This document shows positions 234-20,823 of a stretch of 20,823 nt of DNA, piece after piece. The translations under genes were made by a program, and so were the position numbers. Below the pieces are notes generated by a model. It was not told where the DNA came from. It saw only the letters and a list, made by a program, of their open reading frames with translations, and made no database searches. This DNA comes from a virus. Location: the IMG/VR virus record IMGVR_UViG_3300050015_000489, positions 1 to 20,823 of that record; one strand, given 5' to 3'. The first letter of the stretch is position 1, and each line of letters starts with the position of its first letter.

Positions 234-3200
234 TTACGTTTCTAACGCGATTACCCTCAATTGTTCACAAAGTGGCACCGCGCTACTATTGGTAGATCTC
301 ATTACTATTTTGATTGAAAATTCAACAAATTCACCGATATAATCATTATGCCAATAATAATCTTTAAAATCGGTGATACTCTGTGCTGGAGAAAAATCAG
401 TATTAGGATCAGGAGTCATCAATACATAATCCTGACTGCCAAATGTAGCATTTGTGTTGGTTTCAAGTATTTTATAATATACATCAACTTGTGCTCCATA
501 AGGCCACATGATTGTAAGCCAAAAATGTAGGCTATTTGCTGGATTCTGTAAAACAACAGGTTTTGTAATATAAATTGCGGTATCTGTTTCACCATAAGGA
601 GCGGTTTCTGCCACATAATTAGGAGCGGCTCCAGATGGTATTGTAGCTGGTAATGACCCACTGATTCTATAATCAATACGATTACTAATCAATAGAGAAG
701 TACACCGAGTAGTATCAATCATAGGAGAAAGATTATCGGATAATGATGTTAAATCAATTTGCCAAACTAAACTCTTATTGGCATAGGTGCTACCCAAATT
801 TATCAAATAAGTTTCATTTGGTAAAGAAGCAACAACTTGTGGTTCAGATAAAATTGTATTCTGATTCGGGATAAATTGTGAGAATGGGAAACTTCCACCC
901 AATACTCGTTCATAAGGAATTTGAGTTCCGTGTGTGGAGGTTTCTGTTATTGCTCTCATATAATAATTGGTATTTGTGCCTGTAAAATTCAATTCATTTA
1001 CAATCGGCATAATTATATCATAGGCATAATTTCCCGTACATGTGAAAGCTACACCGGTCAATCCTGAAGAAGTGGCATTGACTGGGGTTCCACTACCATT
1101 TACAATTTGAATTGTATAACTATCTAATTCAGGATTTAGGATTAAATAAGTTCTGGATCCTAAAATTGTATCGGCAATTCCTGAAGCCCAAGATGAATTT
1201 CGTAAATCTCCAGTTACAGTAGGAACAATATAACTTACAGCGATTCCATTATAACTGGCTGCCCAATTAGCATTTCCCACTCCAGGTGGTATTGTAATTG
1301 TTACCGCACTACCAGAAGACATTCCATGGTTGGGTTGGTATATGCGAATGGTGTTTATTGCATTATAAGTTTGTATTGAAAGATTTGGTAAAGAAACAAC
1401 GGGCAATACCGGATTTTCCAATATAACTGTTCCTAAAACACTATAATTAAATACAGCACGATATAAGGTAAATTTCAATGCTTCTCCAGGAGAAGGAACC
1501 CATGTACTTGCATTTTGAGATTTGAATAATAATCCCGCATATGGAACTTGTGATATCAATGAATCTGTATTCAGAACATTATCTCCCAATAAAGCGGTCC
1601 ATACAAAATAATTATTACTATTTGATAATAGAACTATGGCATATTCAACCCCTTGTGGTAAATAAACAGGTGATGAAAATGGGAAATTTGTTGGTGTTGC
1701 CGCAGTAGAAGATACATTGATACTACTCGGATTCAAAACCACTGTGCTGAAAGGAACAACTGATTGTGTGGGTGTTCCATTTAGCATTTGTCTTATTTGT
1801 AGCGTTACGGGAATATTAGCATCTTTGGTAGCAAAATAAACATCAACAGAAGTAACACAATATCCACCGGATAATGTTCCAACCAAGAAAGATTGGGCTA
1901 ATGGGTCAATATAATCCACACCAGGAGCATATTCAAGTACTTGTTGTGATGTTGTAGTAGTTCCTAAATCAACCGTGGCAGTTTGTGAAACAGTTTGTGT
2001 TTGTATTTCAGGAACTCCAGTTGAAGTTATTGTTTGTTGATCCGTATCTAAAGTACCAGCGGCAGTATAGTTCGCGGTTGCATAAGTTGTAGTATTTGCA
2101 AGTACATTGTTTGGATCATTACATAATTTAAATACTCTAGTTCCTGTTCTAAATGCAGGATCTCCAGAAATTGTAGGATCAGGGAGATTGAATGTTCCCG
2201 ATACGGCACCCGCTGCATCAGTTATTAATGTACTTGGCGAACAATATGTTGTAACTGGTGTAATATCAAAAAAGGCGTAAACTTGTGTTAGAGGTTTCAA
2301 TCCCGTTGCGCTAAATGAAATACTATTGGCACGGCAATAAGGAACCATAGCAGTACTTACAGTTACATTATTTACTGTTTTAGTAGGTACATTAATTAAT
2401 GTGGTTGTAGTTCCTGTTGTGGACTGTTGTGCCGTTGAAGTTTCTGTGGCAGTAATTGTAACATAGACAGGATTACCAGGGGTTGGAGTAGTTGCTGGTG
2501 ATGAAAATTCATTATTACCTCCACCATCTACAACTCCAACCCAATCAGTTGTCCAGGCATTCCAAATAGTACCTAAAACATTTTCAGATTCTAATTGGGC
2601 TTGTGTGGCATTATACAATGAATTGTTAGTTATGGTTATATCTGGTAAATATGTAATACTAACCCAAGTATCAGTTGCAGGATTTAGAGTAATGTTGCCA
2701 ATAAATGTAAAAATATTATATGGGTTTATATTTTCTTGTCTTGAGGCTGTTGGTTGCGTCACAACAGGACTTTCAGTATATGGTAATGTCAAAAGGTTAT
2801 TATTTGGTTTTAGTGTTTGAAATTCTATATTAGAACTTTCCGTCGCATCATATACCATACCAATAGGATTGATATTATATGTAGGACGCATAATTTTATT
2901 CAAAGCATCCAAAGAATAATGAATATCTGGATTTGTATAATCGGCAACCGAATTATCCACAAAATTATCTACCACAAAACCAGATTGATAACGATTCAAT
3001 CCCGTTGTAGCATCTGGAATCTGCATATTGGCAGTTGTTTGTTCTAATAGATTCAAGGCTGTATAATATTCTAAATTAGAAATTCTTTGGTCTAAATTAC
3101 CAATATCAGCCATTGTATATACTTTATTGGGTATAGTTTTGATAGTAACTGATTGTGGAGTAAAAGTATACGCGGGATAAGTTATAATAGCTAATACCAT

Positions 3201-5792
3201 ACCACTTGAAGGATCAGAAGGAGCTAATGGTGTTAGTGAAGGTGTCCCTTGAATGACAGAAAACACCCCCGTTTCAGTTAAATATAATTTATCGACTCTT
3301 GCTAGGTAATAGGAAAAATCAGATACAACATCATCATTTGGTTTAACTAAATGACCTACAGTTCCATATATAGGTGGTAAAGGTACTGTATTTCCTCCTG
3401 TTGGAGAAGCAGAATCATTTACCCGTGGTCTAAAATCATAGCAATCACGTAAAGCATATTGAAAACCATTTGAACCATTATAAATGGGAATACGAGAATA
3501 CCAATCTGTAAATGAACCAAAACTTGTATAGCTATTTACATCAAAATAATCTCCTGACCCATGAGAAAAATAAGTATAAACAATATAAACATTAGTTGGT
3601 GCTGGATATCCCGCCAATAGAGTTAATGTTCCAAAATCATATCTGTTATCTCTTTGTCCATTATCAAATGTATACCAAGAGGTAATATTTTCACCAGTTT
3701 CATCTGTACCTAACCAAACACCTGTAATTTGATAAACATCGGCTTTACCAAGGTTTATCAGACTTGAGGGACCACTTACTGATAAAATTTGAGTGTTTAG
3801 TGTCTTTGTTTTTTCTGGTGCTATATTTTGTGTAACTGTTGCGGAAAGTTTTACCGTTAAAGCATGTAATGGCGCGTTGAATGTTAGTTGTGTTTCTCCT
3901 GAAGAAAATACTGGAGTAGCAGAAGTAACATCAATTAGTGTACCTTCTGTAGTTGTAGATGAAGTTTCTACGGTTGCTACATAATCAGTAATTTCCATCG
4001 CAGAAAAGATTTGATTTACACTGGTAGAGAAAGTAACTGTGCCACTGGACACACCCACAGAAGCAAAAACTTTACGGAAAGAATATGAAGTGGTAACATT
4101 ATTACTTTGATCTCTAACTGTTGATACCACATTTTGTGGTAAATTATAAATCAAAATATTATCGGCAGTATCAAATAATGTTATTGTTTGTAAAATATTT
4201 GCTGATCCACCTAAATTGGAGTTAATTGGTGAATTTACAGGTATTGTAGTTGTAGTTGGGAGAACTAATAGAAGATTATTAGTTGTATCCCAATCATATA
4301 CGGTTGCTGTAAGAGCACCCGAAGTAATGGTGCATACAGGGGAAAAACTTCCAACAACATTCACAATATCCAATTGAGTCAAAACATTTGCCGTTGTTGT
4401 TATTGTTCCATCAGAAACAGCAAATGAACGGATATCAGTTGTTTGATAACTACCCGTCAAACTTATATCAGCCAAGAAACATTGAAAAACTGGTCCAGGA
4501 CTTCCAATAGCTTGGAATGCCCCATCTTGAAATTGTAATCCTCGTAATGTTGCTGTTCCTATTACTGAAGTAAGAGGCGCTACACCATCAGTAACAATTG
4601 GGGTGCCATATAAATTTATTTGTGGTAAAGTATCATAATTTGGTATTCCAAATAAACGATTTATAAATACATAATTTCCTAAATAAGCTCTTGTATGGCT
4701 ATTCTGGAAAAAATTGGTTGATCTTGCTTTATTTAAAGCTACATATTGTTTGGAAATAGTTTGAATTTCATAACCTTGTACGTAGGCTTTACCGGGTTCT
4801 ACACCCAATGCTAATTCATCTTCCTGGCCACCTTGACCCGAAGTAAATATACCACCATTATTTCCATTCAATAGATCTTCATGTAAATCAAACCCAAATG
4901 GTGAAGTAATAAAATTACCATTTGCATCATATGTTCTCCGAGCAAGGGTATCTACTAAATCTCCTAATACAGTTTGTTGAACTTGAGATTGAATTATACC
5001 ATTAGAAATAACCATCAATGAAGTAAATTCACTATCAGGTACAGCATCCGACGCCAAAGCCACAAGATTTAAAACGATTTTATAACGATATGCTCCTGGA
5101 GCCGCATAATTGGGAGAACCAATCGCATTATCATATAATGATATATCTTCTTCAGGAGTAACGATTGTTTCGACCGCTTCTAATCCAACATTTACACTTG
5201 GGTATTGGTTATAATCTGCTAAACGAATAGTTTGTGAAACTACATTCAAAAATTTACCAAAAATGAAATATACACCATTATCAATTGAAGCCTCTGATGT
5301 AAGTCCTGTTGAATTCGGAGTAATAGCTTGGCAAACATCAACATTACTTGGCAAAACTTTGATTATTTCATTATCAGCAAATGTAGCTGTAGTATTATTG
5401 GTTCCTGAGGAAACATATTTGACATATATGGTATTGATATTGGCTTCTACCTGGATAACTTGCGCTATAACACCAGTTGTAACGCCTTGAATCTGAACAT
5501 TTCCAACAATAGTTGGATCTATCAAATTATAATCAACTGGAGCAGAAGAATATGTAGGATTAACCTTTACATAGGAAAGGTTTGTATCATATGTAATTTG
5601 TCCTGGGCTTACCATAGCCCCATTGGAAAATATATATGAACCAAACCGATTTATTTGTTCTCCAAAAATTGATTGTAATTGTGTAAGTTCCCGGGCTTGT
5701 AAGGCATACCCTGGACGGAACAAAATTTGGTAAAACTCTTTAGAAGGAGAATAATCATCAAAAATTGGGGCTGTTGCAAAGCTTAATGGCAT
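234..5792 (-). CDS. Giant DUF4815-type phage tail/baseplate structural protein (1852 aa)
   Basis: This is a large virion protein, probably at the baseplate or tail-fibre interface. The N-terminus carries the DUF4815 signature FRPGYALQARELTQLQ (residues 25-40), followed by a segment with YIFSNGAMVSPGQ. A DFRPR motif lies near residue 785, and GTIWNAWTTDWVG near residue 1072. Around residues 1295-1325 there is DPLAQSF followed by a DVYFATKD stretch, a pattern I know from large structural proteins of T4-like cyanophages. The middle is beta-rich, low in charge and Thr/Ser-rich, as in fibre-like proteins. There is no signal peptide, and there are only about 11 Cys in 1852 residues. Base composition is AT-rich like the baseplate genes, in contrast to the GC-rich gene just upstream. 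No Shine-Dalgarno is evident before the ATG at 5792; the 37-nt gap contains CTAAATA (5798-5804). The structural assignment is solid, but the exact location in the virion is not. Confidence 0.85.
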   Translation of the reverse strand: MPLSFATAPIFDDYSPSKEFYQILFRPGYALQARELTQLQSIFGEQINRFGSYIFSNGAMVSPGQITYDTNLSYVKVNPTYSSAPVDYNLIDPTIVGNVQIQGVTTGVIAQVIQVEANINTIYVKYVSSGTNNTTATFADNEIIKVLPSNVDVCQAITPNSTGLTSEASIDNGVYFIFGKFLNVVSQTIRLADYNQYPSVNVGLEAVETIVTPEEDISLYDNAIGSPNYAAPGAYRYKIVLNLVALASDAVPDSEFTSLMVISNGIIQSQVQQTVLGDLVDTLARRTYDANGNFITSPFGFDLHEDLLNGNNGGIFTSGQGGQEDELALGVEPGKAYVQGYEIQTISKQYVALNKARSTNFFQNSHTRAYLGNYVFINRLFGIPNYDTLPQINLYGTPIVTDGVAPLTSVIGTATLRGLQFQDGAFQAIGSPGPVFQCFLADISLTGSYQTTDIRSFAVSDGTITTTANVLTQLDIVNVVGSFSPVCTITSGALTATVYDWDTTNNLLLVLPTTTTIPVNSPINSNLGGSANILQTITLFDTADNILIYNLPQNVVSTVRDQSNNVTTSYSFRKVFASVGVSSGTVTFSTSVNQIFSAMEITDYVATVETSSTTTEGTLIDVTSATPVFSSGETQLTFNAPLHALTVKLSATVTQNIAPEKTKTLNTQILSVSGPSSLINLGKADVYQITGVWLGTDETGENITSWYTFDNGQRDNRYDFGTLTLLAGYPAPTNVYIVYTYFSHGSGDYFDVNSYTSFGSFTDWYSRIPIYNGSNGFQYALRDCYDFRPRVNDSASPTGGNTVPLPPIYGTVGHLVKPNDDVVSDFSYYLARVDKLYLTETGVFSVIQGTPSLTPLAPSDPSSGMVLAIITYPAYTFTPQSVTIKTIPNKVYTMADIGNLDQRISNLEYYTALNLLEQTTANMQIPDATTGLNRYQSGFVVDNFVDNSVADYTNPDIHYSLDALNKIMRPTYNINPIGMVYDATESSNIEFQTLKPNNNLLTLPYTESPVVTQPTASRQENINPYNIFTFIGNITLNPATDTWVSITYLPDITITNNSLYNATQAQLESENVLGTIWNAWTTDWVGVVDGGGNNEFSSPATTPTPGNPVYVTITATETSTAQQSTTGTTTTLINVPTKTVNNVTVSTAMVPYCRANSISFSATGLKPLTQVYAFFDITPVTTYCSPSTLITDAAGAVSGTFNLPDPTISGDPAFRTGTRVFKLCNDPNNVLANTTTYATANYTAAGTLDTDQQTITSTGVPEIQTQTVSQTATVDLGTTTTSQQVLEYAPGVDYIDPLAQSFLVGTLSGGYCVTSVDVYFATKDANIPVTLQIRQMLNGTPTQSVVPFSTVVLNPSSINVSSTAATPTNFPFSSPVYLPQGVEYAIVLLSNSNNYFVWTALLGDNVLNTDSLISQVPYAGLLFKSQNASTWVPSPGEALKFTLYRAVFNYSVLGTVILENPVLPVVSLPNLSIQTYNAINTIRIYQPNHGMSSGSAVTITIPPGVGNANWAASYNGIAVSYIVPTVTGDLRNSSWASGIADTILGSRTYLILNPELDSYTIQIVNGSGTPVNATSSGLTGVAFTCTGNYAYDIIMPIVNELNFTGTNTNYYMRAITETSTHGTQIPYERVLGGSFPFSQFIPNQNTILSEPQVVASLPNETYLINLGSTYANKSLVWQIDLTSLSDNLSPMIDTTRCTSLLISNRIDYRISGSLPATIPSGAAPNYVAETAPYGETDTAIYITKPVVLQNPANSLHFWLTIMWPYGAQVDVYYKILETNTNATFGSQDYVLMTPDPNTDFSPAQSITDFKDYYWHNDYIGEFVEFSIKIVMRSTNSSAVPLCEQLRVIALET

Positions 5793-5825
5793 ACTATTAT
5801 TTAGTCATCTTTAATTTAATTAGGA

Positions 5826-8800
5826 GCGTTTAGTTTGGTGTGGCGACACCTGAAACACGGGCGCTGTTTCCCAGCGGCCCGCAGGAGATCCGGTAGTAAT
5901 AAGGGGTTCCACTGGTTAAGCCAGTGACGGTTTTACCGCGCGCCAGCACGCCGCCAGAGTCGGTTGGATCAGAGGCGTCATTGGTAGAGGCGAAGGGGGA
6001 TGTAGAGGTCCCGATAGAGCAGGTATTCCCGTCCGGGGCGGTGTAGAAGAACGTCAGGTTCCCGGTCGCCTGCGAAATCACGCGCACGTTACGCACCAAA
6101 GGCCGTGGTGTCATGCCCCATACCGGGGTGTCGCATGTATCGACCGACCCACCCCCGCAACTGGCGGTATTACTCCCAAAATTCGCCTGCCCGTAGTACG
6201 CTACGTTCATTTCGTCCCAGGCGCGGCGGGCGGTGATGATCTTGCCTGTCCCTTCGTCGGTGATGGTCAGGTCGTGATCTACCGCCATTGCAGCGCTTGT
6301 AAGCAAAACATTCCCGTAGTTGCCGTCGATGGAATCGAAATATCCGGGCATCATCACCGGATACTGGGACATCTGAGCGCCTTGAGAGTGGCTGGCTTGG
6401 GTTGTATTGAGTTGCCCTGGCGTTACCGTGTATGTTGAAAACCCAACCCACATGCCTGAACTGCCGCCCGTCAACGTGACCTGGGAAGTCAGGCCAGAAT
6501 CGTTGTAGAACGAAATCACATATGGACTGGTCGTCACCACGCTAACATAAAAATCGCAGTTGTTGTTTAGCACCAGCGCGGCGTGATCCGGCGTGTTAGC
6601 TTTGCACGCTGAGTTGCCGACCATCCCGTTATCAACGGCGCTCGTTGCATAGACGCGAACAAGCTGCCCGCTGACGAACGCGGGGCTTGGCGTTCCCGAT
6701 AGCGTAACTTGGCTCAGGCTGGTGTTGACGGATGAAACCGATACGAAGTTTGTTGAACCTGCGGTTGCGGAGAATACCTCGTTGTCGATCTTCATGTAGT
6801 GCGGAAGATCGTACCAAGTGTTCACGTTAAGGTTATTCGAGGGTGGACCGCCAGCCTGCGAATTGTCGGCGCCGAGAAACTGAACACTAGTCGCCCCGGC
6901 TGAAATTGCTTGGGCGATAGTGACCGATGAGATAATTGCGGATCGCGCGGCTGTCCAGGTCTGAAGGTAGCCGTCATACTGGCTGTTGATCGCTGGGACG
7001 CTCACGCCATAACGGTAAAGGGTCGAGGCAAAGGCCGGGTATCCTTGGTTGAAATCAGAGTCTGCGATCAAATGAAGCTCGTGCTGAGAGATGATGGTCT
7101 GGCTGGGAAGCGCCAGAGGATATAGGTCAGTCACGAAGGCAAATGCCGATCCGTAATAGCCATTGAACCAAGGGCCGGTCGCCTGCCCAGTGACGGACGT
7201 ACTTACGCCGGTGACGAGTCCCTGGTCGCCTTGGGCTGGGAACAGAAGAGGATTGGGGAATCCCCGTGTGGACCCGTGCAGCCAATCCACATTGCCTTCA
7301 TACGCGCATCGCACCATGCGCCAGATGCTTGTCTCGGTAGACAAATTAAAGCCTGTACAACTCGTGCTGACCGGGCAGGCGGAATCGGGAGTGCAGGAAG
7401 TCCCTGTCGGTGAGAACGACCCGTTCGTGATGTTGAACTTCCCTTCGCGCGCCTCCAAATTATTGTTGAGTTTCTTCTGGAAATAGAGCTGTTCCGGTGT
7501 CCCATCCGGACTGACAGAGGCGGTAAAGCCAAGTTGCCGCACATCCCACGCATCAATACGTGGGGAGCCGGATGAGAATACCAGACCCCGTTTCTGCCAG
7601 CGATCCCAGTTCGCTCCAGGTACGCCCCCAGACCCGGCCGACGCATTCTGTCCGAGCAGCAGCCAATTTGTGAGCGCCCAATTTGCTTCGAGATAGATGT
7701 ATTTCCCAGTGAAGAGGTAAGCGGTGTAGAACGCTTCGGGCAGGTGAGCCGTGTCAGGACCCCATCCGTTGATATCCGGCGCAGTTATATTACAAATCAC
7801 GCTCCCGGTGTCCCCGGTAACACAGCTCACCATGCAAGTCGGTGTGGTACAGGAACTGTTTACCGTTGAGCCAGCAGGCGAAATCGGCGCGTCGCCGCCG
7901 CCTCCCGTGGTTGCGTGGCCGAAAAAGTCCAGCGTGGGGCGCACGTCGATGCTTACGCCTCGCCCAAACGCATTGGCGGAACTTCCAACGCCACTCACGT
8001 AGGTTGAGGATGTGCGGTTCTCCAAGAACCAGATCGGCGCATGCATAAAGCCCTTGGCGTTCCCCAAGACCACCGGCGCCAGGGTCGAATTGAAGCCGCT
8101 GGCGACATACCTAGAATCCCAACGTGACAACACCCCGTAGAACGGCCACGTTCCGCCTGCTCCGGTATCGAGAGTCTGATACTGCGCCCATCCCATGTGA
8201 GGGGCGACTGGGGTCAGTCCATCGCTGCGCGATGTCACTGCCGTCGCGCCAAGGTCGGTTGCATTGAACGCCGCCACTTCGAGCGCTATAGCGCTGGCCC
8301 CAATCGTTCTTCCGATGTAGGAAGGGACCGCTTTGCTGTATGTCACATACGCCAGGTTGAAATCGACATTCGCTGCTGGTTGGGTTGAGGACCAGCACGT
8401 TTCCATTACCCGTCCGAATGTCTCGATTACGAATGCAGCCGGTGCGGTGTAGCAGGCGGTCGTTTCCGCTGCCCCAGTGTAGACCACGAACGATTCAAGC
8501 CGCTGGTCCTGCGCCCGGTCCATCCAGCCGTTATCAATGATATTGTCCGTCTCGACATAATTCGTGCCGCCGGCCGGACTGGTGTAGAACGTGACCACGT
8601 AGGACGGTCGCATAGAGTTGTATTGCCCGGTTCCAGCGCTCCATGTTGCGCCTGAGTATGGGTCGGTGCATCCTGCGGTGCATTGCCATCCGAGAGACGT
8701 GGTGCGGGTCGTGTCACCGTTCTGGTCGTCCGCCGCTTCCCGCACAAGCACACTCGTCCGCAGCGGTCCGGATTCCAGATACTTCCACATCCCCGCGCCG

Positions 8801-9210
8801 ATCATGGCCCGTGCGTCACAGGGGACCGTGGAGCCGATCAGGCAGGACTCGGTGACGCCTCCGGTAGTTGCCGACCATCCTGCCCCCCAGGACCCAGACC
8901 CGCCGCCGGTGTTGAATGCAAGCATCGCAGCTTGGTTTAAGCCGGAGCCACTGGAAGAAGCGGAAGACGAAGATTCAAACTCAATAGTGATACTGGAACT
9001 GGCCGTGATGGTCTGCTCCATCGTGATAAGAGCAAATTTCACATAACCTGCCGCACAGCCGGAATCCGCAGGCCATCGGGTCTTTACGTCGGACTGCCAG
9101 TATGTGAGGATAGTGCCGCCGGTGTATGGGGCCGCATAGTTGCAGACTTCGCCTTGCGCGAAATAGCGGGGGATGGTCTGGAGGTGCTTCTGCGTTGTGC
9201 CAGACAGATC
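5826..9210. other. GC-rich compositional island 1
   Basis: The stretch is visibly richer in G+C than its surroundings: 34 of 60 bases in 6001-6060 and 37 of 60 in 8881-8940, against 25 of 60 in 3001-3060 and 17 of 60 in 15121-15180. The left border coincides with the stop codon of the 1150-aa gene. The right border falls inside the same gene, after the signal-peptide codons. Boundaries are by eye, to within a few tens of bases. Confidence 0.75.
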
Positions 9211-9282
9211 CCACCATACAATTGAATTAGAAAGTGCGAAGGATGAAATGGCAGTTAATATTAATAGTATAATTGTTTTCAT
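5830..9282 (-). CDS. GC-rich secreted 1150-aa protein, putative polysaccharide-active enzyme or adhesin with C-terminal FN3-like domain
   Basis: The N-terminus, MKTIILLILTAISSFALSNS, is a Sec signal peptide: a Lys followed by a hydrophobic core and a small-residue cleavage region near 16-18. The mature part has 22 Cys, many close together (for example around CTTPTCMVSC), which fits an oxidising extracytoplasmic setting. Near residues 508-540 a segment with AHLPEAFYTAYLFTGKY and many Trp resembles the helical (alpha/alpha) repeats of some polysaccharide lyases and hydrolases. Ser/Thr/Gly beta-rich segments follow, and the last ~90 residues look like a fibronectin type III domain (LTSGTPYYYRISC). 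I cannot name catalytic residues. Codons are GC-rich (34 of 60 bases G+C in 6001-6060), but the first ~24 codons are AT-rich. The gene begins 6 nt after the previous stop without a visible Shine-Dalgarno, suggesting translational coupling. It could instead be a host-binding fibre or a lysogenic-conversion factor. The ORF is certain; the function is tentative. Confidence 0.6.
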   Translation of the reverse strand: MKTIILLILTAISSFALSNSIVWWDLSGTTQKHLQTIPRYFAQGEVCNYAAPYTGGTILTYWQSDVKTRWPADSGCAAGYVKFALITMEQTITASSSITIEFESSSSASSSGSGLNQAAMLAFNTGGGSGSWGAGWSATTGGVTESCLIGSTVPCDARAMIGAGMWKYLESGPLRTSVLVREAADDQNGDTTRTTSLGWQCTAGCTDPYSGATWSAGTGQYNSMRPSYVVTFYTSPAGGTNYVETDNIIDNGWMDRAQDQRLESFVVYTGAAETTACYTAPAAFVIETFGRVMETCWSSTQPAANVDFNLAYVTYSKAVPSYIGRTIGASAIALEVAAFNATDLGATAVTSRSDGLTPVAPHMGWAQYQTLDTGAGGTWPFYGVLSRWDSRYVASGFNSTLAPVVLGNAKGFMHAPIWFLENRTSSTYVSGVGSSANAFGRGVSIDVRPTLDFFGHATTGGGGDAPISPAGSTVNSSCTTPTCMVSCVTGDTGSVICNITAPDINGWGPDTAHLPEAFYTAYLFTGKYIYLEANWALTNWLLLGQNASAGSGGVPGANWDRWQKRGLVFSSGSPRIDAWDVRQLGFTASVSPDGTPEQLYFQKKLNNNLEAREGKFNITNGSFSPTGTSCTPDSACPVSTSCTGFNLSTETSIWRMVRCAYEGNVDWLHGSTRGFPNPLLFPAQGDQGLVTGVSTSVTGQATGPWFNGYYGSAFAFVTDLYPLALPSQTIISQHELHLIADSDFNQGYPAFASTLYRYGVSVPAINSQYDGYLQTWTAARSAIISSVTIAQAISAGATSVQFLGADNSQAGGPPSNNLNVNTWYDLPHYMKIDNEVFSATAGSTNFVSVSSVNTSLSQVTLSGTPSPAFVSGQLVRVYATSAVDNGMVGNSACKANTPDHAALVLNNNCDFYVSVVTTSPYVISFYNDSGLTSQVTLTGGSSGMWVGFSTYTVTPGQLNTTQASHSQGAQMSQYPVMMPGYFDSIDGNYGNVLLTSAAMAVDHDLTITDEGTGKIITARRAWDEMNVAYYGQANFGSNTASCGGGSVDTCDTPVWGMTPRPLVRNVRVISQATGNLTFFYTAPDGNTCSIGTSTSPFASTNDASDPTDSGGVLARGKTVTGLTSGTPYYYRISCGPLGNSARVSGVATPN

Positions 9283-9288
9283 AAAATT

Positions 9289-10116
9289 TTAGAAATGTTT
9301 AATATCTATTGCTGTCCACACCGCAACCGGCGGTGTAACCGATCCAGATGTAATTTTACAAAGAGCTACTGTAACTGTATTAGCAGCACTAACTCCACCG
9401 GACCATTGAAATCCAGAACCAAAAATTGTAGCTGGCGGTCCAAGTAAAATTGCATCTCCTGTAACAACACCAGTAATTGTAAATGTTTGTTCATTACAAG
9501 TGGATTGAGCCATAGCTGACCCACTATTAAAAGTAAGAGTAGATGAACCTAATAAAAATGTAGGAACTGCACTTGTATCAATTGATGCCGGAGATCCTGA
9601 AGAACCATTACCAGTCAATCCTAATCCAGTTACTATAGTTGCACCCGAAGTCGCTTGTATTAATTCCCATGCATATGTGGATGCTCCTGTATTACTGCAC
9701 CCATACCAAGTTGAATTAATTGCGGCGGCGTTTGATTGAGCGTATAGTCTACCAACATGACTAGAGGCATTACATAATGTGCTAGACGGCGTGCCACTAC
9801 CTGACCATACTCTAAAAGATGTTGCCGAACTAAAATCATCACTACCAGTCCATAAATTAGTTCCCGCAAGTATTGGTAATAACGTCCATGTATTTGTTGC
9901 GGTACAATAATATTGTAAATTGTTTGTAATATCAACATCTAGATCTTTACCCGCAGTACAATTTTTGGATCCTTGTGGTGTACCAGAACTAGTTTGGAAA
10001 TTAATTTTACCATTTATTGCACCAGAAAGATTTGTAGACGATGTAAGAGAACTAAAATCAGCCCATTGGGCAAACGCAGGTATTGTAAGAAATATAAGTA
10101 AACAAAAATGTTTCAT
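9289..10116 (-). CDS. Signal-peptide-bearing tail-fibre-like protein (275 aa)
   Basis: The N-terminus MKHFCLLIFLTIPAFAQ is a textbook Sec signal with an AFA/Q cleavage site after residue 16. The mature protein has six Cys that fall in three pairs: C53/C71 and C115/C140, each inside a small module (C...YYC..TNTW and C...GRLY...WYGC...YAW), and C207/C253 bracketing the C-terminal domain. The Cys-GRLY-Cys-W module and a C-terminal domain with GDAILLGPP and VSAANTVTVALC look like pieces of bacterial and phage fibre or adhesin proteins, especially those seen in soil bacteria; this family resemblance is from memory, not a search. Composition is AT-rich throughout, unlike the two GC-rich neighbours. 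A Shine-Dalgarno AGGAAA lies about 9 nt before the ATG. A likely role is a host-surface binding fibre or exported adhesin. The signal peptide is odd for a virion protein. Confidence 0.65.
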   Translation of the reverse strand: MKHFCLLIFLTIPAFAQWADFSSLTSSTNLSGAINGKINFQTSSGTPQGSKNCTAGKDLDVDITNNLQYYCTATNTWTLLPILAGTNLWTGSDDFSSATSFRVWSGSGTPSSTLCNASSHVGRLYAQSNAAAINSTWYGCSNTGASTYAWELIQATSGATIVTGLGLTGNGSSGSPASIDTSAVPTFLLGSSTLTFNSGSAMAQSTCNEQTFTITGVVTGDAILLGPPATIFGSGFQWSGGVSAANTVTVALCKITSGSVTPPVAVWTAIDIKHF

Positions 10117-10127
10117 AAGTAAGTTTC

Positions 10128-10346
10128 CTAATTCGTTAATGTTGAAAGTTGAGCATTCGTTAATGTTGAAAGTTGAGCATTCGTTAACGTTGATAATGTT
10201 AAACTTCCGCCAGAGGTAAATATACTTACCGTACCAATATTTTTAACATTTCCACTCATTTTAACTTGACCTTTTGCATATTTAACATCAAAACTCAACA
10301 TTATCAATATAATTAATGGAATACAAAATAATTTTATTCGTGTCAT
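10128..10346 (-). CDS. Small secreted repeat peptide (72 aa) with LSTLTNAQ repeats
   Basis: I do not recognise this protein. It has an N-terminal Lys/Arg-flanked hydrophobic segment (IKLFCIPLIILIMLSF) followed by DVKYAKGQV, which reads as a Sec signal with cleavage near AKG/Q. A short Gly/Ser/Thr-rich linker follows. The protein then ends in two and a half copies of the octapeptide LSTLTNAQ, encoded by a 24-bp DNA tandem repeat. It sits between two larger signal-peptide genes, 12 nt after one and 11 nt before the other, so it is read in the same operon. A GAGGG stands about 12 nt before the ATG. The mature part has no Cys. It may be a remnant or short version of a fibre protein whose distal part was lost, or a genuine small secreted peptide. 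The ORF is short but well placed, and the leader makes chance unlikely. Confidence 0.6.
   Translation of the reverse strand: MTRIKLFCIPLIILIMLSFDVKYAKGQVKMSGNVKNIGTVSIFTSGGSLTLSTLTNAQLSTLTNAQLSTLTN
10131..10196. repeat. 24-bp direct tandem repeat (two perfect copies plus a degenerate third)
   Basis: Bases 10131-10154 and 10155-10178 are identical (each begins attcgttaatgttgaaag), and a diverged third copy follows from 10179. The period is divisible by three, so gain or loss of a unit would keep the reading frame and change only the number of LSTLTNAQ units at the C-terminus of the small secreted peptide. The repeat ends directly at that gene's TAG stop (10130-10128). Confidence 0.9.
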
Positions 10347-10354
10347 TTCGTTGA

Positions 10355-12260
10355 ACCCTCACGGCACCATCATCATTACCGGCCAAATTCCAAGGTGCGC
10401 GGTAATCCCGCCGCCACCGCTGCAATTCGCCGGAAATGCCAAACTTGATCCGTCGCCCGTCACCGTGGCCGTAGCGGACCTAAACTGCCGGGTTGTGTCC
10501 GTGTTGTCTAAGACGAGAAACTCGCCGCCGCCCTGAAGCACTAAGGCGGACGAGTCAGTTGCAACGCCTATCAGGTAGGCTCCGGCGGCCAAGGTCACTG
10601 GCGACGTGAAGATCGCACTGATGGGGACGCCACTTACGTTCAGATCCGGGCTTCCGCCGCTGATTATCGGCGTGGTGGTTGCATAGGTCGTAGAGCATGT
10701 CGAGTCGGCGCTGAAGATGCCGAAAAGTAGCCCGCAAATTCCCCCGGTACAGGAGGTCCCGCTGGCTGTCTTGATCTGGAAGTTGATCTTCCGGAACGTT
10801 GCGCTGAACGGAAGGGTTACCTGCCACCACGCCCCATACCCGGTGCCTGGATTATAAGCCGAGGAAGCGACAAAGTTTCGTCCGAATGGGTACCACGCCC
10901 CAATTCCAGACGTGCCGATGATTGTTCCGCTACTCCCGCCACTCGGCGCATTCCCAATCGTCGGCACTTCCCAGTACGTCCCATCGTAGATGAGGGCTAC
11001 TGGCACATTCGCAACCAGATCCCCTGACGCCAGAACCGTCGACTGGCTCCACTTCCGAACGTGCTTCGCCGCCGTAGAGTTGACATTGATTGTCACGTCC
11101 CCTGAGTTAGTAGTGCCGGGGGTGTACAGAATTTCATCTCCCGATGCCGGGGTAAACGAGGGCGACGTGGTGCAGGACTGCGCCGTCCCTGACCCCGAAG
11201 AATCTACGCAGGCCCGGGCCGTTGCTAGAGGAAAGTGAGCGCCGACCGCCGGGGTTGATCTGTGCGCCACACCGGCCGTGTCGATGTAACTCACAAACTG
11301 GCTGTCGGAGGGATTAGCGATTCCAACGACTGTGGTGGACGCGACGCCCGAGGAGTTGAGGCAAATTTGCGTGTGCGAAGTCGAATCGAAATAACAAGAC
11401 TGGTATGTGCTAGCCGGGGTGCTTGGTGCGGTACCTTCAAGTCCCGTCACGATGTACTCACCGGAGTTAGTTACTGTTATTTCCTTCTGCCATCCCGCGC
11501 CGCCCGTGCCGGCCGCCAAGCAAACCCACTCATTCAGGTTGGTCGAGTCGTAGTAAGCCTGAAGGAGCGAGGTGGTGGGAGCTACACACGTCGCGGTGGG
11601 CGCGCCCGAGCCCGTGGTCTGCGTCAGGATGCCGCTGCCGCCGGCGTACTGCGGGATATTGAGCGTCCCGCCGCTGAGGGTCGCGGCGCCGCTGGTGCCC
11701 GTGGTCGTAAGCGTCAAGGCGCTCTGGAAATGGGATGGCGAATAAGTTTGCCAAGTCCCGGCCCAGTCGCCTGAATTGGTTGGCGGAAACGTCGATGGGT
11801 AGCCGGTCAAGCCTGAAATCGTCGAATAATTCGTGAGCGCCTGCTGGAAGTAGCTGGGCGCATGTGTCTGCCAGGTGCCCGCCCAGTCGCCGCTATTCGT
11901 TGGGGGGAAAGTGGACGGGTAGCCGGTCAGTCCAGAAATGGTGGAGTAATTAGCAAGTGCCGTCTGAAAATAGCCCGGTGCATGTGTCTGCCAAGTCCCG
12001 GCCCAGTCCCCGGAGTTAACAGGGGGAAACGTAGACGGCCACGCACCCGGCGCACCCGTAATCGGTGACTGATACAACCCCACCATCGCCGTCTGCGCCC
12101 TCGCGGCAGTGAAGTACAAACTACCCGATTCCGCAACCTGTGAGGTATTGATCGCCGGCAGGTCCCGAAACACCAGCGCTCTTAGCGCCGAAGTGTCCGA
12201 TGAACTGCCGCTTGGGTCTGTAGCCATCACCAAATTCGGCAGCCCACTCGGCGCCGAACC
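10355..12260. other. GC-rich compositional island 2
   Basis: A second GC-rich block covers codons ~100 to the stop of the 733-aa fibre gene. The left edge coincides with the stop codon at 10359. The right edge is an abrupt drop to AT-rich codons near 12250-12270, around the residues SIASSGGSAPSG. The AT-rich interval 9210-10350 separates it from island 1. Boundaries are by eye. Confidence 0.75.
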
Positions 12261-12560
12261 ACCAGAACTAGCAATACTGGACCATCCACCAACAGCAACG
12301 GCAACACATGCTGGTGTAGGTGTACCAATTGGAGCACTACATGAATAATAAACATGATTCAATGTATCCCAATACGTATCACCAGGAAGATTTCCAGATA
12401 ATGAACCGGGAGGACCACTACCAGAATATTTTTGTGGAACAGCCGCAAAATTATTATTAATTGCGGCTGGGAGTCCAGCACCTGTAATCGTATTTGGTAT
12501 TGGTACAACTTGCCCAAATAATCCTACCGTCCAAAACAAAAGAAAAATTAATTTTTTCAT
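10359..12560 (-). CDS. Chimeric signal-peptide-bearing tail-fibre-like protein with three 40-aa repeats (733 aa)
   Basis: The N-terminus MKKLIFLLFWTVGLFG/QV is a Sec-type signal. Residues ~30-95 form a fibre-like GDTYWDTLNHVYYSC module. Residues 174 to about 283 hold three copies of a 40-residue unit containing TFPPTNSGDWAGTWQT. A typical phage-fibre stretch follows (TLNIPQYAGGSG), then a module with SFTPASGDEILY and YDGTYWE that I associate with fibres of environmental phages, then a beta-rich C-terminal domain starting near GAWYPFGRNF. The mature protein has 12 Cys. The first ~100 codons are AT-rich; from about 12260 down to the stop codon the gene is strongly GC-rich. A Shine-Dalgarno (TAAGGT) lies about 10 nt upstream of the ATG, and a T4-type late promoter lies upstream of that. 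It is likely the first gene of an accessory fibre cassette with a receptor-binding or adhesive role. The fibre-like nature is well supported; the target is unknown. Confidence 0.7.
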   Translation of the reverse strand: MKKLIFLLFWTVGLFGQVVPIPNTITGAGLPAAINNNFAAVPQKYSGSGPPGSLSGNLPGDTYWDTLNHVYYSCSAPIGTPTPACVAVAVGGWSSIASSGGSAPSGLPNLVMATDPSGSSSDTSALRALVFRDLPAINTSQVAESGSLYFTAARAQTAMVGLYQSPITGAPGAWPSTFPPVNSGDWAGTWQTHAPGYFQTALANYSTISGLTGYPSTFPPTNSGDWAGTWQTHAPSYFQQALTNYSTISGLTGYPSTFPPTNSGDWAGTWQTYSPSHFQSALTLTTTGTSGAATLSGGTLNIPQYAGGSGILTQTTGSGAPTATCVAPTTSLLQAYYDSTNLNEWVCLAAGTGGAGWQKEITVTNSGEYIVTGLEGTAPSTPASTYQSCYFDSTSHTQICLNSSGVASTTVVGIANPSDSQFVSYIDTAGVAHRSTPAVGAHFPLATARACVDSSGSGTAQSCTTSPSFTPASGDEILYTPGTTNSGDVTINVNSTAAKHVRKWSQSTVLASGDLVANVPVALIYDGTYWEVPTIGNAPSGGSSGTIIGTSGIGAWYPFGRNFVASSAYNPGTGYGAWWQVTLPFSATFRKINFQIKTASGTSCTGGICGLLFGIFSADSTCSTTYATTTPIISGGSPDLNVSGVPISAIFTSPVTLAAGAYLIGVATDSSALVLQGGGEFLVLDNTDTTRQFRSATATVTGDGSSLAFPANCSGGGGITAHLGIWPVMMMVP
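11712..12041. repeat. 120-bp direct tandem repeat (about 2.75 copies) inside the fibre gene
   Basis: The string gcccagtc recurs in equivalent contexts, and the anchors at 11751, 11871 and 11991 are exactly 120 bp apart. Each unit encodes 40 residues of the pattern YPSTFPPTNSGDWAGTWQT, followed by a Phe-Gln-rich helix-like part and NYSTISGLTG. The copy nearest the N-terminus starts at the Trp codon 12041-12039; the C-terminal copy is diverged and incomplete. The repeats would lengthen the fibre shaft. They could also promote copy-number change by recombination. Confidence 0.9.
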
Positions 12561-12583
12561 GTTTTCTTTACCTTAACAATAAA

Positions 12584-12591
12584 TATTTATA
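12584..12591 (-). promoter_or_regulatory. T4-type late promoter box TATAAATA
   Basis: The minus strand reads TATAAATA exactly, the T4 late consensus recognised by sigma gp55. It lies in the longest intergenic gap of the window (12561-12604), between the gp8-like gene and the first fibre-cassette gene. Transcription would start a few bases downstream and leave a short leader that still contains the TAAGGT ribosome-binding site before the ATG at 12560. The box overlaps a 12-bp AT palindrome (12579-12590). AT-rich DNA gives chance matches, but the position and spacing are right. Confidence 0.6.
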
Positions 12592-12604
12592 ACATTTGAC
12601 ATCG

Positions 12605-13885
12605 TTAGAACTGCAACACAATTTTGATATCTTCAAACTGTGCTGGTGCTCTAAGTACAGGAGACATATTTTCGGTTGTTAGAATTAGTCCACTATTTGG
12701 CTGTATATCAGGATATGTGATTGTTGAAACTGTTCCAATTGCGGTTGCACCACTATTTTGTATAGTTTCGCTAACAATAAAGGTTCCAGTAACTTGCGTT
12801 AATCGCAATACTGGAGTAACAAAATCCACCACATATGCGGTAGCACCACTCGTATAACCTGTTACTAAATCCCCGGGATTATAAGTTCCTGTTATACTCG
12901 TAAGGGAAATATTAGTAGTTAATGTTCCGACATTAGCAGCAAAATTATATTGCGAACCATATGCTAATGGATTTAAAAGTAAACCGAATTGTCTATATGA
13001 ATTTGCAGTTGTAATTTTTCCTGATTCAGATTCATTATAATTTATATCTACCATAATATTTGTTGCTTTTAGTTGATTAGCAGGATCAAAACCAATACCA
13101 CCAGGAGGGCTAAGTATAGCATGGGCTGTAGCTCCACCAGAACCACTAAATGAAACCGTAGCTTGTGTATAATTTATTCCTGGAGTAATAATCGTAATAG
13201 AAGTGACCGAGGTTCCTGTAAGATTGGCTATAGCTGTACAACCTGTACCTGTACCATTTACTGTTACTATTGGGGTTGTTAAGTAACTTCCACCATTAGT
13301 AACTTGAATATTATAAATTGCTCCCGGGACCGCAGTTGCTTGGACAGACCATTGCAATGAGCCATCATTGTATAATAAAGTATAAATTGGAATCCAAAGG
13401 GAAGATAAAAATTGTAAAACATCTCCCGATGATACTTGAAACATAAATTTCCAAATATAACCATCAGCAAGAGTAACCGGGGTAGTTCCTGTAGATGTTG
13501 GTTCTACTGATGATGGTTGGCCGCCATTATTATTCAAACAAATATAAACATTATGACTCGGTGTAATAACATAAAATGGTGTAATTTGAACTAGATCAGT
13601 ATAAAAATTATAAACTGTCGAAGAAGTCCATGCATATGCAGGTATCACTAAAATTGCATCTGATGGAGCCACACGTTTAACCGCAATCATTTGTAGATAG
13701 TCATTATATTTTTCAGATACCGTATCTAATGGTGCCGGTGGATTGGAATCATTAGACCAAGGTTCTGTTTGCCCTATCCAAACATAAAGGTTATTTGTGG
13801 ATAGTTGGGTCTGTAATAATCCTTCTAAAAATTTTTGAGCAGAATATACACTAAAATTTGTAGATTTGACGGCATAACTTGACAT
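12605..13885 (-). CDS. 8: gp8-like baseplate wedge protein
   Basis: This is a baseplate wedge component homologous to T4 gp8. Matching features in order are: an N-terminal block with WSNDSNPPAP (residues 43-52) and a conserved MIAVKRVAPSD stretch; NVYICLNNNGGQPS (112-125); DGYIWKFMFQ (141-150); and a C-terminal tail with TTENMSPVLR and QFEDIKIVLQF, the usual gp8 ending in T4-like phages. At 426 aa it is longer than T4 gp8 (334 aa). The extra length appears as Gly/Thr-rich beta segments at about 190-265 and 320-390. A Shine-Dalgarno AAGGA stands about 6 nt before the ATG at 13885. It follows the tail protein gene after 8 nt and is the last gene of the wedge block before the fibre cassette. Composition is AT-rich with few Cys. 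In T4, gp8 binds gp10/gp7 and gp6 to build the wedge. Confidence 0.88.
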   Translation of the reverse strand: MSSYAVKSTNFSVYSAQKFLEGLLQTQLSTNNLYVWIGQTEPWSNDSNPPAPLDTVSEKYNDYLQMIAVKRVAPSDAILVIPAYAWTSSTVYNFYTDLVQITPFYVITPSHNVYICLNNNGGQPSSVEPTSTGTTPVTLADGYIWKFMFQVSSGDVLQFLSSLWIPIYTLLYNDGSLQWSVQATAVPGAIYNIQVTNGGSYLTTPIVTVNGTGTGCTAIANLTGTSVTSITIITPGINYTQATVSFSGSGGATAHAILSPPGGIGFDPANQLKATNIMVDINYNESESGKITTANSYRQFGLLLNPLAYGSQYNFAANVGTLTTNISLTSITGTYNPGDLVTGYTSGATAYVVDFVTPVLRLTQVTGTFIVSETIQNSGATAIGTVSTITYPDIQPNSGLILTTENMSPVLRAPAQFEDIKIVLQF

Positions 13886-17740: not shown

Positions 17741-18898
17741 TTATGACATCTTTAACCAGTTCATATTTGTTCTTGTTTCCAAACCACTGAGATCATACCA
17801 TCCGGATCCCCAAAGAGTCATTAAGGACTTAAAATATTCCTCATACATATATTTCACACGATGTATAGAATAATTAGCTTCTGCAATATCTCTAATTTTT
17901 TGATAATCAAAATCTAAATGAGTTGCCGCATAAACGAATTGTTCTAATGTATGGCATCTCCATCCAGTAACTCCATGTTTAATTGTGAATGAAAAGGCGG
18001 CATGATCTGTAGTAATAACTGGAGTTCCACAAAGTTGTGATTCTACCGCTACACCACCAAAAGGTTCCAAAAATGTTGTAGGCATCAAAACAGCTTTTGC
18101 CTCTCGCATCAATTGAGACCTCAATTTTACATCAGCATATCCAGCATAAGAGATCTTGTCATTTAAAGGAATATCAATTCCTTCTTCAGTTTTTAACAGA
18201 TCATCAGTTTGTGATATTACACCTTGTCCGGCAAGTATTAGATTCATTCCAGTTGCTTTTTGTATCTCCAAAACAACTTGAAGGCCTTTACGTCTAATTA
18301 ATCTACCGATATACAGAAGGTAATCTTTTTTCTTATCACAAAATTCAAAATCATCAGGATTAAAATAATTAGGAATTACTGCATCATAACATTTAAAATC
18401 AGGATCTTGTGATAAAATACCATAACACAATGCTTGGTGTGTATATGTTTCAAATACTCTAAATTTTGAAAATATACCTGTATAACCAACAAATGGTTCC
18501 ACATTAATTGTCGATTCTTCGCCAACAATATCAAAAATTGGTTTTTGACATAAACCACCAACAATACAAACAAAATCTTTCTTTTGTTTTCGCTTATTAA
18601 TTTCTTCGGCGGCTCTTGTGTTCGTCAATCGCCAATAAAGTTGAGTTGGATCCCATTGGATTGGAAAGGTATTCTTTTTCCAATCCGTTTTACCAAAAAA
18701 CTTCTGTTGTTCGGCATTAGATATAATGTCTATATGTTCATTACAATATGCTTGCGAACCTTCAGCACTATAATCAAAAGTTTCATGTCCTAAAGACTGC
18801 ATCATTTTATGAAAATTGAGCACTTTTTGGGAATAGGCACAGGCATTATATTCTTTGGAAACTTTAGTATGCGGCAAGCTTATAATATGAAATCGCAT
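17741..18898 (-). CDS. GT4-type (GT-B fold) glycosyltransferase
   Basis: This 385-aa protein should transfer a sugar from an activated donor to an unknown acceptor in the cytoplasm. The C-terminal half is a typical GT4 donor-binding domain: LLYIGRLIRRKGL (194-206), NLILAGQG (219-226), YAGYADVKLRSQLMREAKAV (251-270), and the EX7E motif in EPFGGVAVE with Glu278 and Glu286, followed by GTPVITTDHAAF. The N-terminal half is less conserved and has no signal peptide or membrane segment. It lies between the collagen/beta-helix fibre gene (9-nt gap) and the baseplate block (10-nt gap), so it is expressed with virion genes. That context points to modification of a virion protein such as the Thr-rich collagen stalk, though modification of host surface glycans is also possible. 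No Shine-Dalgarno is obvious. The family assignment is firm; donor and acceptor are unknown. Confidence 0.9.
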   Translation of the reverse strand: MRFHIISLPHTKVSKEYNACAYSQKVLNFHKMMQSLGHETFDYSAEGSQAYCNEHIDIISNAEQQKFFGKTDWKKNTFPIQWDPTQLYWRLTNTRAAEEINKRKQKKDFVCIVGGLCQKPIFDIVGEESTINVEPFVGYTGIFSKFRVFETYTHQALCYGILSQDPDFKCYDAVIPNYFNPDDFEFCDKKKDYLLYIGRLIRRKGLQVVLEIQKATGMNLILAGQGVISQTDDLLKTEEGIDIPLNDKISYAGYADVKLRSQLMREAKAVLMPTTFLEPFGGVAVESQLCGTPVITTDHAAFSFTIKHGVTGWRCHTLEQFVYAATHLDFDYQKIRDIAEANYSIHRVKYMYEEYFKSLMTLWGSGWYDLSGLETRTNMNWLKMS

Positions 18899-18907
18899 CT
18901 TGTTATT

Positions 18908-20823
18908 TTACACGTAAGACGGCCACCATAAAGAGTCTATACTGTCCCAATATAAAGTCATAGCTCTACCAGTTATCGCAGTAGCGGCAACAACTATATT
19001 TCCACCAGTCCCAAGAGTAAATACACCAAACGAATTAAATGGAAGAAGAACAATTGGACCGGTATATGCTCCACCTATTCCATTAGGGCTACGAGCAATT
19101 GTTGTAATTGTGCCCGGACCCAATATTCCCTGGATGGGGCTTGGAGAAATACTGGTAGTTGCAGAAATAGGATAAACTAGGACATTATCCAAATTATTAT
19201 TGATAACTACAGATTTATTCGATGTTGAAGCATTATAGATAAAATAAGCTGCTGAATCGCTATTTCCCCGGCGATTTCCCATTATAGTAACGATTGTTGC
19301 GGCATCTGAAACATATATATCGGTACCCGATGTAGTATTCAACGCAAAATAATTGTCGGTGATACTGGCATCTATTACTCCAGTGCCAATCTCCAGGCAG
19401 TTACCATAATTAATAGCAACAAATTCACAATTAGCTACGCTACCACCATAACTACCACTCAACATTATGACCCCATATAATGCGGTAGTTTGACAATTGG
19501 CAAAACTACAACCAAGGATACTGGTAATCTGTGTGTCCGCCCCAATAACAACACCATAGGAATAATATTGGTCAAATTGGGTACCGTGAATCCTAGTATA
19601 TCCAGGATAGGATGTTGTGCTACCAACTGTATTTCCTACTATATTTACACCAATCAAAGCACCAACAATTACTCCATCTTCAACTTGAACACCTTGACAA
19701 TCATTCAAGATATCAATTCCATCCCATTCACCACCAAGACCCATATTTGTAAACCCAGTTATAGTTGAATTGATTACTCGTTGTGCTGTAATGATGGCCA
19801 ATCTTGGTGAGGGGAAATGTAATGGAAATCCTGTGGTCATATGCCGAATATTTGTAAATTCAACATTGAATGAATAATTACCATATCCACCATACCAACT
19901 GGTTCCATCTGCGGTACTTCCAAAGAATAATGTGGTACTATCAATCAATTGAATATTATTACAGGTTACATTGAAACATCGGTCAATAGTGATTCCATTA
20001 CCAACATCATTGACAATAATGGAGTCAACGGTGACATACATATTTTGAACAATAGATAATGCTGTTGCCGTATTAGTAGGTGTTCCCGTTAGGTTAAATG
20101 ATAATTCACGGAAACCAATATTAGTTGCCGTTGAAACTGTTTTGAATACAATGGCAGTTGAAGATACTGGAGTAAATACAGTAGAAGGTCCGGCACCACG
20201 AACCACGATATTAGAAGGAACATTGATAGTTCCATATGGGGAATATGTACCGGAAGGAATAAATACTGTACCACCAGAAGATGTAATAAAATTGATAGCT
20301 TCTTGAATTCCAACAGTGGCACTTTGAACAGTCCAGGCGCCCGAATGGGAATTAGCGCAGGTTACCGTTACATTTAGCCCAGATACATTAGTTACTGGGA
20401 CAACTTCAGCCAATCCAGTTCCAGCACTTATATAAAGGTTATCTCCTATTACAAGCCCAGGGGGAATTGAATGCAATGCAAATGTATTGGATCCACCTGA
20501 AAGAGAGCCACCAGGAGTATATGGTGTAAAATTAAAAGGGGTTGAAACTATGTATATATTAGGCCCAGTGTAACCTGTGTATCCAGTATAACCAGTATAT
20601 CCTGTGAAGTTACCAGGACCAGTATATCCTGTAGGACCAGTATATCCTGTTGACCCCAGGGGTCCTGTATACCCAGTAAAATTACCAGGTCCAGTATAAC
20701 CTGTGTATCCAGTATAACCAGTAGGTCCGAAAGGACCTGTATACCCAGTAAAATTACCAGGTCCAGTATACCCAGTATATCCTGTGGGACCAGTATAACC
20801 AGTAGGTCCGAAAGGACCTGTAT
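18908..20823 (-). CDS. Collagen-like/beta-helix tail fibre or tailspike, N-terminus outside window
   Basis: The frame is open from the TAA at 18910-18908 to the window edge, giving 637 visible residues. No ATG, GTG or TTG occurs in frame between the edge and a TTG at 20476, and the collagen repeats continue across that stretch. The TTG is therefore internal, and the real start lies beyond the window. The first 87 residues are collagen-like Gly-X-Y triplets dominated by GYT and GPT. A 28-residue linker follows, then a pectate-lyase-3-type beta-helix opening with [21 protein letters not shown] and [11 protein letters not shown], then many short beta-helix rungs, and a C-terminal segment ending in [15 protein letters not shown]. 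Such beta-helix proteins are usually tailspikes that bind or cleave surface polysaccharide; no catalytic residues can be assigned by eye. The gene is followed after 9 nt by a glycosyltransferase gene. There is no signal peptide in the visible part. Confidence 0.85.
20561..20823 (-). repeat. Collagen-like Gly-X-Thr coding repeats
   Basis: On the minus strand this stretch encodes 87 residues of Gly-X-Y triplets, mostly GYT with some GPT and GPF. Almost every Y position is Thr. The triplet register is kept throughout, but at three places the unit GPGNFT puts Asn where Gly should be. At DNA level the repeat is built of 9-bp multiples; for example, identical aggtccgaaaggacct strings lie 81 bp apart (20723 and 20804). 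The array continues past the window edge. Confidence 0.95.

Follow-up and report, generated by a model that had tools for sequence, protein, structure and literature searches.

Filamentous phages are known to fit their coat proteins with Sec leaders that are used before assembly. These are virion proteins with Sec leaders, as in the proposal made below, but filamentous phages are non-tailed and are extruded through the membrane, unlike the phage considered here. The prophage adhesins PblA and PblB are tail-type proteins that act on the surface of Gram-positive hosts after release by lysis. Compared by description, they resemble one reading of the present locus, that of phage tail-type proteins at the cell surface, but they have no Sec leader. 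Six leaderless tail spikes, from the Jilinvirus phages Arya, ECOO78 and ECO1230-10 and from Alux-21, KA2-1 and ZRG1, share an attachment domain with five leader-bearing proteins described below, and the same place in the tail module and the same type of enzymatic body, but they begin directly with that domain, without a leader and without a cysteine pair. Phage T4 Spackle (gp61.3) is periplasmic, with a cleaved leader and two cysteines that lie close in space (PMC7650644). It is comparable to the exported proteins proposed here in having a cleaved leader and a pair of cysteines, but it is a small lysozyme inhibitor rather than a fibre, and there is no sign of homology. SAR endolysins such as JG068 gp47 also carry a Sec-type N-terminus (PMC3765740), but these enzymes serve in lysis, keep their release anchor uncleaved and have no tail role. 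None of the papers covered by a literature search, which leave out most subscription journals, describes a tailed-phage fibre with a Sec leader, in line with the preliminary description of this DNA, which knew of no described system of this form.

An inserted cassette in a T4-like phage

The window, that is the whole 20.8-kb virus record analysed here (20,823 nucleotides), derives from a T4-like myophage of 30-40% GC. It comprises gp25-, gp6-, gp7- and gp8-like baseplate genes, then a DUF4815 gene. Four ORFs sit in this tail module, with the gp8-like gene on one side and the DUF4815 gene on the other; all are on the minus strand, at the places first reported for them, and are tightly packed with gaps of 12, 11 and 6 nt. 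The features are as follows, a slash marking the predicted cut.

12605..13885, minus strand: gp8-like baseplate wedge protein, flank, without leader
5793..12604, minus strand: complete inserted cassette at the gp8-like/DUF4815 junction, missing there in 19 of 19 relatives examined
10359..12560, minus strand: 733-aa fibre-like protein, predicted leader residues 1-16 (LFG/Q), 12 mature cysteines
12513..12560, minus strand: predicted Sec leader MKKLIFLLFWTVGLFG of the 733-aa protein, from the leader rule
10128..10346, minus strand: 72-aa stub (MTRIKLFCIPLIILIMLSFDVKYAKG/Q), weaker leader, bodiless
9289..10116, minus strand: 275-aa protein (AFA/QW), accepted by the leader rule, 6 mature cysteines
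10069..10116, minus strand: predicted Sec leader MKHFCLLIFLTIPAFA of the 275-aa protein, from the leader rule
5830..9282, minus strand: 1150-aa protein, accepted by the leader rule, 22 mature cysteines, weak C-terminal Fn3-like match
9235..9282, minus strand: predicted Sec leader MKTIILLILTAISSFA of the 1150-aa protein, from the leader rule
234..5792, minus strand: DUF4815 protein, 1852 aa, flank, without leader

We examined the same junction in 19 relatives found via gp8, which include a 175.7-kb contig (gp8 55% identical) and Ochrobactrum phage OC. In 19 of 19 the DUF4815 gene directly follows gp8, with a gap of 3-24 nt (79 nt in phage OC going by the deposited annotation). The cassette is thus, judged by gene order, an insertion of about 6.8 kb. 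A leader call on the DUF4815 protein of the Ochrobactrum phage was rejected as a wrong-start artefact.

Leaders were called by a rule asking for a basic n-region, a 9-residue core free of charges whose Kyte-Doolittle values average 2.2 or more, and small residues at both -3 and -1. The rule accepts the 733-aa (MKKLIFLLFWTVGLFG/QVVP), 275-aa (MKHFCLLIFLTIPAFA/QWAD) and 1150-aa (MKTIILLILTAISSFA/LSNS) proteins, which have the features of Sec/signal peptidase I leaders and for which cleavage and translocation are predicted. No further main ORF of the window passes it, and the gp8-like and DUF4815 flanks indeed lack a leader as had been noted. The earlier observation of leaders on all four proteins is confirmed, with three of them clear; the 72-aa protein fails the rule, having D and K between core and cleavage site, and plausibly carries a weaker leader than the others. 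The rule accepts 0.5% of shuffled N-termini and 11 of 227 real phage proteins (5%), and the chance of at least three leaders in four is about 4e-4. Taken alone, the window leaders are modest evidence; they become firm once relatives are counted. The 275- and 1150-aa genes contain no in-frame restart just behind the leader, and the 733-aa gene has one in-frame TTG, at codon 67, and no good restart just behind the leader.

The cassette is mosaic in composition. The 733-aa gene is AT-rich to about residue 97 and GC-rich in the body that follows, which includes three 40-aa GDWAGTWQTxxPSxFQ repeats; repeats of the GDWAGTWQ type recur in several unrelated contigs, mostly within leader-bearing proteins. 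The 275-aa gene is AT-rich from end to end, and its residues 1-73 are related to the 733-aa N-terminus (32% identity, E=0.002). In the 1150-aa gene GC3 rises from 0.20 in the leader to 0.70 in the following 20 codons. Leader GC3 is 0.45-0.90 in GC-rich phages, and the step is therefore not accounted for by a general AT ramp at the 5' end. By composition, the leaders are the phage's own and the GC-rich bodies imported DNA. The end of the 72-aa stub (10131-10193) consists of 2.6 copies of a 24-nt repeat, perhaps the scar of a lost fibre body.

Searches of Pfam and PHROG gave no significant match for any of the four cassette proteins, nor did the PDB with the 733- and 1150-aa proteins as queries. 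The 1150-aa protein had no relatives in viral contigs, phages or plasmids, and the 275-aa protein nothing past one weak local phage match; an AlphaFold model of the latter, made with no alignment, was uninformative (pLDDT 35). The Peptidase_S74 C-terminal chaperone domain was found in 0 of 12 records and is absent from the window proteins. A genome search for the host returned a sole match, partial and 39% identical, to a Patescibacteria contig whose matching ORF has no leader.

Several neighbouring genes were recorded. A glycosyltransferase gene (17741-18898) lies within the baseplate cluster of the window, and a similar-looking gene occupies the same place in L002. The window also encodes a collagen-like fibre with GYTGP repeats and a likely beta-helix body (18908-20821; 5' end beyond the window), and this fibre may have a leader too. 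L002 (17295-17864) and L007 (18728-19291), phages with a related gp8, encode look-alike leader-bearing proteins of 187-189 aa (..AFG/QTTT, ..VFA/QTPA) downstream of DUF4815, perhaps a phage-coded outer-membrane protein. A patatin-like protein (GGGIRG motif) is encoded behind the tail genes of another related phage (L006 7530-8432).

Leaders, cysteines and attachment domains in other phages

The same arrangement is found in Tunturi_1, a cultured podophage that infects Tunturiibacter, a member of the Acidobacteriota (PMC11924767). Leaders are present on ORF12, 13, 14, 16 and 17, which is five of six consecutive tail-module genes, and on no protein outside the ORF12-17 block in the first 50 kb; this clustering has a probability of less than 1e-4 by chance. 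ORF14 is annotated as tail spike and ORF17 as virion structural, and ORF17 has no plausible in-frame restart just behind its leader. The other Tunturi_1 proteins above 300 aa are portal, head, adaptor, nozzle-like and internal proteins and enzymes, except for an early-region ORF annotated 'tail protein'. The paper describing these phages mentions no signal peptides and gives no mass spectrometry of virions (PMC11924767). Tunturi_3, which infects the same host strain as Tunturi_1, has a tail module without leaders, and export is therefore no host necessity. Runs of three to five large leader genes were also found in the metagenomic contigs G010, G011, G015, G016 and G017; the other large proteins of G010, G011 and G016 resemble portal, nozzle, adaptor and internal proteins or enzymes. 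The motif xx[AGS]Q occurs at residues 13-35 in 37 of 46 leader-bearing proteins versus 26 of 216. Phage contigs of other groups (L035, L037) encode leader-bearing repeat proteins of the GGTG..APxxGQVL type, and the leader trait may thus extend beyond acidobacterial phages. In a spring-water phage (L062 4731-4976), a protein annotated with a Sep15/SelM redox domain adjoins a very large unannotated gene.

The mature window proteins contain 12 (733 aa), 6 (275 aa) and 22 (1150 aa) cysteines. Cysteine makes up 1.86% of the mature sequence in the 46 leader-bearing proteins, hand-picked as tail-block genes and including a few that fail the strict leader rule, versus 0.56% in 51 leaderless virion proteins (p 7e-13), chosen by annotation, of which 5 pass the rule when later in-frame starts are allowed. 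The number of cysteines is even in 40 of 44 leader-bearing proteins (p 9e-9) versus 19 of 37 leaderless virion proteins, and in 37 of 41 when one protein is kept per homology cluster. In the L075-L086 loci, fetched after the parity idea had been noted, all 18 proteins with at least two cysteines have an even number. An automated survey of proteins of at least 250 aa from seven contigs, which partly covers the L075-L086 and L026 loci again and so does not count as independent of these, gave even numbers in 21 of 23 leader-bearing proteins versus 93 of 165; the two odd ones seem to have passed the leader rule falsely and were kept in the counts. Parity is strongest for a cut at residues 16-20 and declines as the assumed cut shifts inward. 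Enrichment and even number together are a mark of disulfides, which we infer for these proteins. Between Tunturi_1 and Tunturi_2, ORF17 (L069 19474-23028 and L088 10903-14745) differs by about 96 aa inserted in the body, which takes the cysteines from 32 to 34, still an even number.

An HMM was built from the first 95 residues of the six leaderless tail spikes named above. It matches directly behind the leader in Tunturi_1 ORF12 and in proteins of G011, G016, L029 and G004 (5e-12 to 1e-7), the last of which narrowly misses the leader rule. A cysteine pair lies at matching places in four of these five leader versions, and its second position is alanine in the leaderless spikes; the G004 protein has two cysteines, one of them elsewhere. 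Thus, as judged by homology, an N-terminal head-binding (virion-attachment) domain stands behind the leader in five relatives. It is not seen in the window, where the N-terminal region of the 733- and 275-aa proteins gave no match to the tail-spike head-binding domain.

A proposed assembly route and its alternatives

Export and oxidative folding of such proteins are strongly indicated by their sequences. Export, as suggested in the preliminary description, has good support from the content and parity of cysteines, the xx[AGS]/Q motif and recurrence in unrelated phages. The reading we favour, at about even odds, is that the cassette encodes tail-fibre or spike proteins that are Sec-exported, disulfide-stabilised and held in the periplasm until they dock on virions at lysis. 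In this proposal, the Sec machinery would carry the proteins across the inner membrane and signal peptidase I would remove the leader, usually at xx[AGS]/Q. The cleaved spikes would fold in the oxidising periplasm and form disulfides between paired cysteines. They would probably stay there until lysis of a diderm host, because no outer-membrane export domain was seen (no Pfam match to an autotransporter or T9SS C-terminal domain in the window and related leader-bearing proteins). At lysis they would meet virions and dock via the N-terminal domain exposed by cleavage, as suggested by the attachment domain behind the leader in relatives. Variable bodies would be swapped between phages while leader and docking domain are kept.

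Large trimeric fibres usually fold in the cytoplasm, which counts against exported spikes, as does the presence of another, collagen-like fibre in the window (18908-20821). The main rival is that the proteins are secreted and never enter the virion: depolymerases, glycosidases or adhesins would pool in the periplasm and, freed at lysis, strip capsule or biofilm or act as decoys. The alpha-galactosidase, F5/8 type C, CBM5/12, beta-helix and chitobiase C-terminal domains on leader-bearing proteins of related phages agree with such enzymes, although enzymatic bodies are equally usual in tail spikes. The accessory nature of the window cassette, inserted next to baseplate genes that seem complete, also speaks for this rival. 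We nevertheless consider it unlikely, since five relatives show homology to an attachment domain immediately after the leader and few other spike candidates are left in Tunturi_1, G010, G011 and G016. The view that Sec export would make a fibre miss assembly is likewise weakened by this domain and by spike or fibre candidates within the leader block of Tunturi_1 and several contigs. Among the roles outside the cell first considered, the same evidence favours joining the virion at or after lysis, and capsule remodelling and superinfection control are less favoured.

In a split fate, only part of the protein would be exported, and copies left in the cytoplasm, whether or not they keep a leader, would be assembled in the usual way; the leaders would then be compatible with normal assembly in the cytoplasm. 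Such a fate is improbable, as neither the window genes nor Tunturi_1 ORF17 offer a plausible in-frame restart just behind the leader, and the even cysteine numbers point to oxidised folding of most of the protein. Hydrophobic N-termini are also able to anchor proteins, and an uncleaved virion or membrane anchor had been put forward as the alternative to export. The strong small-x-small/Q cleavage motif (37 of 46) and a parity that is best with the cut at residues 16-20 and weaker further in make this very improbable. Finally, the sharp GC shifts at about 12300, 10400, 9200 and 5830 might point to an assembly artefact or chance, an explanation that is scarcely credible since reading frames continue through the shifts and stop at gene borders, and the same architecture is present in an isolated phage and many contigs.

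Docking of exported spikes at lysis might, more tentatively, represent a widespread second assembly route in tailed phages that has gone unnoticed, by which Sec-exported, processed and disulfide-bonded receptor-binding spikes join virions only at lysis. The idea is open to testing at once in cultured Tunturi_1, and a leader combined with an even number of cysteines offers a simple sequence test for such spikes in soil phages, whose fibre genes are mostly unannotated. Such a route would account for the very production of spikes rich in disulfides, and it casts doubt on the view that tailed phages make and fit their fibres in the cytoplasm.
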